From assembly GCF_035083965.1 (NCBI RefSeq), contig NC_089722.1:43090697-43154696 (forward strand): a DNA stretch of 64,000 nucleotides, given 5' to 3'. The first letter of the stretch is position 1, and each line of letters opens with the position of its first letter. Under the pieces are notes generated by a model. It had not been told where the DNA came from and did no database searches. It was given only the letters and a program-made list of their open reading frames with translations. Source of the stretch: Branchiostoma lanceolatum (taxonomy: Eukaryota; Chordata; Leptocardii; Amphioxiformes; Branchiostomatidae). The position numbers were made by a program, and so were the translations under genes. Shown piece by piece: positions 13,901-16,900 of the stretch.

Positions 13901-16900
13901 CAAAGTGGGTGCCGCTTTAGGGTCTTAAGTCTCAAAGGAAAGCAGGAAAATGCAAAGACAAAGTTAGCGAGAAATTCACAAAATGACAACTAAAACAATA
14001 TTGAGATATTCAATTTCTTGTGGAGCCCACAGGTTACGGTTTGAAACCCTCCAGTGTGGAAGATGATGATAGCCAGATCCTGACGTACCACCGGATTGTG
14101 GAGGCCTTCAAGTTCGCCTACGCTAAGAGAACCGAACTCGGAGATCCCAACTTCGTAGACGTAGATGAGGTATGTTTAGAGTGCTTACGCTTGTATAAAT
14201 CCTTTCTCCTTGACCTGTCAGTTTTAAGTTATCATCCTTCTTTTTCAAATGTCTGTCAATGAAGGGAAAAGACTTTAAGTGGATGCTACTGACTTTGTCC
14301 CAGTGTTGTTTTCCCACGTGTTGCACTCCAAAATGCACTCCATTCCAAAACATGCAAAATGTTGTCCATTCCGAAACGTTCTCCATTCCAAAACATACTC
14401 CATTCCAAAACTTGCTCCATTGGAAAACGTACTTCATTCCGAACCTTGCTCCATTCCAAAACGTGGCCCATTGTAAGACGTACTCAATTCCAAAACTTGC
14501 TCCATTCCAAAACGTACTCCATTCCGAAACGCACTTCATTCCGAATCTTACTTCATTCCAAAACTTGCTCCATTCCGAAACTTGTTCCATTCCGAAATTT
14601 GCTCCATTCCGAAACGTTCTCCATTGCATTCCAAAGCTTGCTTCATTCCGAAACTTGCTCCATTCCGAAACTCGCGTTGACCACAGTGACAGTCCGGATT
14701 AAATTGAAATCTCTTCCTGCCCCAAAAGCTCGTCACAAACATGACGTCCCGTGCCTACGCCGAATCCCTGCGACAAAAGATAAACGACACAAGGACGTAC
14801 AACTACATGTACTACGGCCCGTCCTACGCGTCGCCTCCTGACGGCGGCACCTCACACCTGTCCGTCATGGCGCCTAACGGCGACGCCGTGGCCGTCACCA
14901 GCACCGTCAACACGTAGTAAGTAGATCCTATATCCTTTTTCATTGTGCGACATTGTCACAATTCTGCAGTTGTATGATTCGTTTTCTTCAATTGTGTCCG
15001 TAGTTTCGGCGCAAAGAGACGATCACCGTCGACTGGCATCCTCCTGAACAACGAGATGGACGATTTCTCCTCCCCAAACCTCACCAACGCTTTCGGGGTC
15101 CTGCCCTCCCCAGGTACGTACAATGGGCAATCCCAAGCCTCACCAACGCTTTCGGGGTGCCGCCCTCCCCAGGTACGTACAATGGACAATCCCAAACCTC
15201 ACCAACGCTTTCGGGGTCCCGTCATCCTCAGGTACGTACAATGGACAATCCCAAACCTCACCAACGCTTTCGGGGTCCCGCCCTCCCCAGGTACGTACAA
15301 TGGACAATCCCAAACCTCACCAACGCTTTCGGGGTCCCACCCTCCCCAGGTACGTACAACGGACAATCCCAAACCTCACCAACGCTTTCGGGGTCCCGCC
15401 CTCCCCAGGTACGTACAATGGACAATCTTAGCAAATGGGATAGGGCCAATTTAAAACCCTTTTAAAAGCTGCCAGGCCCGGATATATCTGGGATACAGAA
15501 ACATGCCCTGGGGTCGGGCCGAATTGAATCTCTATGGATGACATATTGAGATTGAATCTTGACTTGAAAATAGAAAACATATTTTTGTGATACGATATTT
15601 TGTGATACGCCTTTTTGCATTCTCAATCACTGCAGTATATATAATTGTTTAATTAGCAGCGCAGCGTCGTAAATGGAGTCATAAATTTGACTTGAATCTA
15701 AATGATTTATTTGATTTGTCATGTATCTATAAACGATTTGTCATGTATCTATAAACGTTTTTAAACAAAGAAACGTGCTACAAATACATGTACTAACAAA
15801 AGGAGTTGTCTTCCCCCTTTATGATGGAACGGTCGAACGAGTCATGTATTGTAATAACTGACTACTTGGGATTTAGTATTCACCACTTGTAAGTTGTGAC
15901 ACTATGATGACGTGTCATAACTGATGTAAAAGGTGGGAATTTCATTATATTGGAACTTTGATTTGATTGAAATGAGTAATTCCGAATGAAGTCATCTGAC
16001 TATATGAAATCCTGCTTATTTCAGCAAACTTCATCGAGCCCGGAAAGCGCCCCCTATCGTCCATGACGCCCTGCATCATCCTGGACTCTAACGGTGACGT
16101 CAGAATGGTGGTCGGGGCTTCGGGAGGATCGAAAATCACCACGGCAACGGCTTACGTAAGAAAAAATTGCGACTGTAATCTATTTCGACCATAGGTATTG
16201 TCAGATTGAGATCAATGGAAATTAATTCTTTTTTGAAATTGTGTGAAAAAAAGAAACTGTTATCATTTAGTTAATTTGTTTCCGAAAACACCTATGTAAT
16301 ATTCACATCATCGTTAGAAATCTATTCAATGTGCTATATCAAAATCGTTTCTACAGACACCAATGTGTGTGTACTGTATGTGCTTTAATTTGCGTGAGTG
16401 CGTGTTGATAATAGAATGGCTTCGTTATGGCTTCTATGCTCTTGGTTTACTTTAACAAACGACGTGTTGCCTTCCTCGCTGATCGCAGGTGACCATGCAG
16501 CACCTTTGGCTCGGACTGGACGACATCGGTGCCGCCGTGGAGAAACCCCGCCTGCATCACCAGCTGAGGCCGCAGCATATCGACGTGGAGGAGTTGAGGC
16601 CGTTCACACCAGGGGTGGGTTCAGTTAGTTATTCCCGCCTCAGATGGTGCATTAGTACATAGGGCGGCGCACATCTGTGTTCCAATAGGACTTGGGCCAC
16701 ACAATTTTATAAAATCACCACACCAGTAGTCAACTGGTATAGTGGTGTGTGTGTGTTCAACTCCCATCCTCTTTGTCAAATTTTGATTGCCAAGCAGAGA
16801 AAACAGAATGTGATGTAGGGACCTGACACTCACATATAATGAGCTCTTGATGTAACACTAGCTCGGCCACTCTTACAAACACATGGTTCTAATAAAGAGC

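Follow-up and report, generated by a model that had tools for sequence, protein, structure and literature searches.

How cells pass over identical splice donors next to the correct one is of practical interest in splicing, and the question is raised by two related genes in the window analyzed here (the whole stretch of DNA, 64 kb). At the border of exon 8 and intron 8 of GGT-A, a gene for gamma-glutamyltransferase, an enzyme that processes glutathione, the exon end and its donor are repeated six times in tandem. The best explanation, to which a probability of about 75% is given, is that the repeat is an exon-boundary minisatellite of the type known as a mirage, that donor 1 is the donor that works and that the extra units are near-neutral intron sequence. 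The array most likely leaves normal splicing undisturbed.

GGT-A (10930–17175), hand-built from conserved exons, has 11 exons and encodes 605 amino acids. Exons 1–6 are at 10930–11177, 11615–11829, 12067–12268, 12597–12757, 13170–13328 and 14033–14169, and exons 7–11 at 14729–14916, 15004–15113, 16025–16155, 16489–16614 and 17035–17175. Exon 8 is 110 nt long, and its final 41 nt (15073–15113) make up the exon portion of the first array unit. Intron 8, with donor 1 in use, comprises 911 nt (15114–16024). The tandem paralogue GGT-B (32904–39196), also hand-built, has 11 exons and encodes 599 amino acids. Both reading frames are intact, and all 20 introns of the two genes are of the GT-AG type. 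Both translated sequences belong to the gamma-glutamyltransferase family by their match to the PF01019 profile (E = 1.1e-173 for GGT-A and 6e-172 for GGT-B), and GGT-A matches the chains of human GGT1 (PDB 4gg2/4gdx). Amino acid identity between the paralogues is 81% over 596 aligned codons, with overall NG86 values of 0.118 for dN and 0.204 for dS; exon 5 is the sole exon with dN greater than dS (0.094 vs 0.073). Four long single-frame genes bearing LRR and TIR domains (Toll-like receptor type) are also found in the window, at 2–2992 (cut by the window start), 23233–26454, 45176–48442 and 53387–56605. These and the GGT genes are all on the plus strand, and the tandem duplicates are interleaved in repeated blocks. 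The spliced genes suggest animal DNA, and the type of array together with the tandem Toll-like-receptor-type genes points to a lancelet as the probable source.

The six 59-bp units of GGT-A (15073–15426) start at 15073, 15132, 15191, 15250, 15309 and 15368; the TRF call is 59 bp, 6.0 copies, 15073–15427, with 94% matches and a score of 647. In each unit, 41 nt from the exon 8 end precede 18 nt from the beginning of intron 8, with CAG/GTACGT at the border (slash), and the repeat thus spans the exon-intron boundary, as a mirage does. The last exonic bases at the six GTs are 15113, 15172, 15231, 15290, 15349 and 15408. Donor 1, the normal exon-8 donor, is the palindromic sequence GTACGTAC at 15114–15121; the same sequence forms donors 2–6 (15173–15416), with starts at 15173, 15232, 15291, 15350 and 15409. 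Pairwise differences among the units amount to 0–5 of 59 positions, and A4 equals A6. An earlier note on this DNA had described a 59-bp minisatellite that takes in the 3' end of exon 8 together with the donor, and both the TRF array and the six identical donors 59 bp apart bear this out. Copies of each donor were also searched for in the downstream intron, and copies of each acceptor in the upstream intron, against 30 mononucleotide shuffles. A local copy above the shuffles was detected at 2 of 40 GGT boundaries, the exon-8 donors of GGT-A and GGT-B (29/30 and 27/30 best matches; shuffle maxima 17 and 18); at the other 38 tested, no fossil copy rises above the shuffles.

In GGT-B, the array at the same boundary (37436–37625) has three units of 59, 59 and 72 nt, and the last exonic bases before the unit donors are 37476, 37535 and 37607. 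The last unit, B3, carries a 24-nt poly-C run (37582–37605) in place of the end of the exonic copy; this run may be real or may have arisen from an error in sequencing or assembly. Copy number at this boundary is therefore six vs three in paralogues of one assembly. The earlier note held that it can change by slippage; a difference is seen between the paralogues, and slippage stands as that note's own proposal. Unit B2 differs from A2 at one position, and the expressed unit B1 differs from A1–A6 and B2 at 8–11 positions. A2 and B2 have in common a G (GGGGTGCCG) that is absent from A1, A3–A6 and B1; B3 has poly-C there. On account of this G, and of the same register and breakpoints in GGT-B, the array is probably older than the gene duplication that separated GGT-A and GGT-B. 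The A2/B2 variant could, as another possibility, be a product of gene conversion between the two genes. The arrays are visible in the sequence; as to the order of events, a 59-bp segment that contained the exon-8 end and the donor would have been tandemly duplicated, probably before the GGT genes separated, and copy number would have altered since.

The consequences of donor choice differ from donor to donor. Donor 1 of GGT-A gives the normal protein. Donor 4 is the one extra donor in frame: as had been claimed, it would add 177 nt and 59 residues, for a product of 664 amino acids. The remaining four (donors 2, 3, 5 and 6) alter the frame, also as claimed, and lead to early stops 190–215 nt before the last junction. 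In GGT-B, donor 1 again gives the normal protein, and the extra donors, at offsets of 59 and 131 nt, are both out of frame, with stops that precede the last junction by 215 nt. By the common rule, a transcript is decayed when its stop is more than 50–55 nt ahead of that junction; all frameshifted forms are therefore predicted to decay and not to yield a regulated protein. Donor 1 is regarded as the working one, since no other donor yields the conserved enzyme in the two genes. It had been noted, too, that three frames are open across the GGT-A array. This is true, but since 59 = 2 mod 3, openness is one property of one unit and not three. All-frame openness is found in 25% of dinucleotide-shuffled units and in 16% of those with the shuffling confined to the 18 intronic nt, and none of the 18 other exon ends of both genes is open if tiled likewise. 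Open frames were discarded as proof of coding use, as a quarter of shuffled units are open too.

The exonic part of the unit, read in frame, gives the same peptide in A4, A5, A6 and B2, and in an alignment with human GGT1 this peptide falls on PSITNEFGVPPSP. The catalytic threonine, which is taken here to be residue 381 in human numbering, served for counting to the lid loop. The lid loop is Ser428–Ser438 in human and Pro438–Gly449 in E. coli (PMC4568574), and the E. coli and H. pylori lid covers bound substrate, with E. coli Tyr444 at the lid tip (PMC3940202). By alignment, then, what each unit repeats of the coding sequence is the lid loop at the GGT active site, and the donor 4 product would gain this loop a second time, together with a linker. 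The earlier note placed this insert between NNEMDDFS and PLSSM; the in-frame insertion holds, and its exact place is directly after GVLPSP. The human motif GVPPSP is kept by A2, A4, A5, A6 and B2, five of the seven copies in the introns; A3 reads GVPSSS and B3 is interrupted by the poly-C. The expressed copies read GVLPSP in GGT-A and, in GGT-B, GVPPSP preceded by PDQPNAY. Several intronic copies therefore look nearer to an older exon sequence than the expressed copies do. The expressed exon-8 end of GGT-B (37436–37476) is more drifted than its intronic copy B2, and at the position of Phe in GGT-A and human it has a Tyr, like E. coli (Tyr444, at the lid-loop tip).

One reading of these arrangements is a regulated switch, whereby donors 1 and 4 give normal GGT or a form with 59 more residues, the other donors turn the gene down via stops, and array length sets the balance. 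The open +177 nt extension, the second lid-loop copy that it would add and the about equal strength of the six GGT-A donors are consistent with this. On the other hand, GGT-B has retained its array with no in-frame extra donor, so that the in-frame alternative expected of a switch is not kept between the paralogues; frame openness is seen in 25% of shuffled units; and regular splicing is reported for the published mirages (PMC3087553, PMC3902484). Such a switch is considered very unlikely. The claim in the earlier note of a choice between functional and non-functional enzyme is likewise unsupported, given the lack of an in-frame extra donor in GGT-B and the decay predicted for frameshifted forms, though donor 4 may see some low-level or regulated use.

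Amphioxus mirages are known in Adh3, the globins BflGb6 and BflGb9, troponin C and PGBD5, with units of 10–160 bp (PMC3087553, PMC3902484). RT-PCR on amphioxus mirage genes suggested regular splicing, and the Adh3, globin and troponin C mirages were reported without mRNA disturbance (PMC3087553, PMC3902484). In PGBD5, the repeats were called a 57-residue exon by an automatic gene model that no cDNA supported (PMC3902484). The GGT array fits this rare kind of structure, of which a few lancelet genes had provided examples. It differs from the published examples in that the gene is a GGT, the same boundary is affected in two tandem paralogues with differing copy number, the donor is palindromic and the unit encodes an active-site loop. 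Neither a GGT mirage nor a palindromic-donor model appeared in broader searches of open-licence papers, which is weak evidence of absence.

The donor matrix was trained on 18 donors and the acceptor matrix on 20 acceptors, all from these two related genes; both are rough. With the genes' own matrix, the six GGT-A donors are alike (10.31), with U1 duplexes of −8.2 to −8.4 kcal/mol, and in GGT-B donors 2 and 3 exceed donor 1 in strength (10.31 vs 4.83; U1 duplex −8.4 vs −7.4). A preference for donor 1 by strength was ruled out, since the scores are equal in GGT-A and donor 1 has the lower score in GGT-B. Among identical donors, the one nearest the intron is often preferred. GTACGTAC is a perfect palindrome, its own reverse complement; the B1 and B3 donors are imperfect palindromes. 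The sequence is found seven times in the window against 0.6 expected, all seven in these arrays, an excess for which tandem copying alone suffices, and one palindromic donor among 20 is unremarkable by itself. Being its own reverse complement, it lets any duplicated donor pair with any other.

Folding models, which consider RNA pairing alone, without proteins or transcription speed, were used to follow this pairing. In growing GGT-A transcripts, donor 1 is 0.57–0.95 free until donor 2 is made and 0.00–0.58 thereafter. With donor 1 held U1-bound and pairing limited to spans of at most 80–200 nt, donors 2–5 are 0.00–0.09 free and donor 6, the closest to exon 9, remains partly free (0.36–0.45); at a span of 300, donors 4 and 6 are 0.34 and 0.09 free, respectively. 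Donors 2 and 3 pair at 0.55–0.99 over five spans. Donors 4 and 5 do so at 0.55–0.99 at spans of 80–200, and at 0.12 at 300, where 5–6 forms instead (0.86); at span 200 the rival pairs 2–5 and 3–4 reach 0.42–0.43. Four controls with altered donors, run at span 150 and with donor 1 bound, left 19 of the 20 extra donors 0.14–0.53 free and one 0.01 free. Once donor 1 is occupied, donors 2–5 thus mostly bury one another in the GGT-A models. At equilibrium without U1, donor 1 of the full GGT-A region is paired with donor 2 (0.69–0.99). In GGT-B, donor 1 is ∼0.62 free and the others 0.00 in short transcripts (ends 37625–37700) and at span 100; in longer RNA at spans of 150–300 with donor 1 bound, donor 2 is 0.57–0.64 and donor 3 is 0.37–0.38 free. 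A first contrast in accessibility (donor 1 at 0.18–0.21 vs ≤0.009 for the others in GGT-A, and 0.010–0.014 vs ≤0.0055 in GGT-B) was set aside as a sign, taken alone, of donor 1 preference: it was judged partly a window-edge effect, because full-region folding pairs donor 1 with donor 2, and the models of growing transcripts and of bound donor 1 were relied on instead.

These models suggest an array that sequesters itself, an idea that is tentative and on balance unlikely: U1 would bind the free donor 1 first, and the later donors, mainly 2–3 and 4–5, would pair and hide as GUACGUAC duplexes. If this were true, duplication of a palindromic donor would be silent by construction, and hence the array would be tolerated. 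A mechanism by which the 'first-transcribed donor wins' is a testable idea, unproven, and the palindromic donor is the part that most deserves experiment.

A further explanation, to be regarded as improbable, is a recursive or self-healing splicing in which later donors are used first and the retained units are then cut from donor 1 to a later AG, leaving one mRNA. The splice-signal combination expected of a mirage, AG/GT, is found in all nine units of GGT-A and GGT-B, and excision from donor 1 to AG 6 in GGT-A gives exactly the normal mRNA letters. Pyrimidine content is 92% at both exon-8 ends and 23–69% at the other 18 exon ends. CTCAC, which is similar to a branch point, is present 30 nt before the AG in seven of the nine units, with no AG between; it is not found so in B1 and is farther away in B3. 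Against this, the AGs appear weak as acceptors. Eight of nine score −4.5 to −1.6 (the poly-C unit B3, 5.6), which is level with the weakest two or three of the 20 real acceptors when the matrix applied to each of these leaves out that acceptor and its paralogue (−4.3 to 9.9, n = 20), and below all 20 with the self-trained matrix. Among 3792 AGs in the window, the eight are at the 60–76th percentile and B3 at 96.5. A single-unit intron of 59 nt would also be shorter than all 20 introns of both genes (shortest 87 nt), though multiples would fit. Duplicated AG/GT segments recall the Rogers model of intron gain by tandem duplication, which is described for ATP2A1, fission yeast and potato; there too the duplicate can supply donor and acceptor and leave the protein unchanged (PMC4974935). 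Unlike in that model, the GGT array multiplies the donor of an existing intron, with no new intron position seen. Drosophila recursive splice sites (ratchet points) likewise have an adjoining AG/GT (PMC8605326), but they are within a long intron, whereas the GGT array is at an exon end, with a weak-looking acceptor half and short spacing.

It is very improbable that the array boosts exon definition, with the extra donors binding U1, uncut, and together with a GGGG run per unit strengthening recognition of exon 8. Equal U1 sites and GGGG runs are present downstream of donor 1 and arrays are kept in both paralogues, but the folding models bury most of the extra U1 sites.

The preferred reading remains that of a mirage-like minisatellite with a working donor 1, the extra units acting as nearly neutral intron sequence, perhaps with some leakage into early-stop transcripts. 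Two features might keep them silent. With the palindromic GTACGTAC, later donors would pair mutually while donor 1, made first, is free; and, because every unit has AG/GT at its exon-intron border, splicing from donor 1 to a later AG would restore the same exon end. The array anatomy, two intact genes that need donor 1, the published mirages, the early stops, the palindrome pairing and the donor 1 to AG 6 excision count in its favor. Counted against it are that donor 1 is not the strongest, the frequent preference for the intron-nearest donor, the weak-looking AGs, the pairing of donors 1 and 2 without U1 and the PGBD5 annotation. Donor competition has been treated elsewhere (PMC5585400). The two genes form a natural pair: GGT-A with six equal palindromic donors, GGT-B with a weaker imperfect first donor followed by two stronger ones. 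Their comparison could directly test models of order of synthesis, RNA pairing and re-splicing.

Other repeats are found in the window. Intron 7 of GGT-B has a 32-bp array of ∼20 copies (36363–37023) that starts ∼20 nt past the exon-7 donor and also multiplies donor-like words, with GTAAGG present 16 times in 36351–37040; intron 7 of GGT-A is 87 nt long and has no such array. A 17-bp minisatellite (TCCATTCCGAAACTTGC-like) is in intron 6 of both GGT genes (14365–14672, ∼18 copies; 35343–36117, ∼45 copies). TGAG tetranucleotide arrays are in two copies of the repeated block (8415–8880, ∼117 copies; 61774–62499, ∼181 copies), and an open frame at 43072–43485 resembles, by eye, the end of a non-LTR retrotransposon reverse transcriptase.
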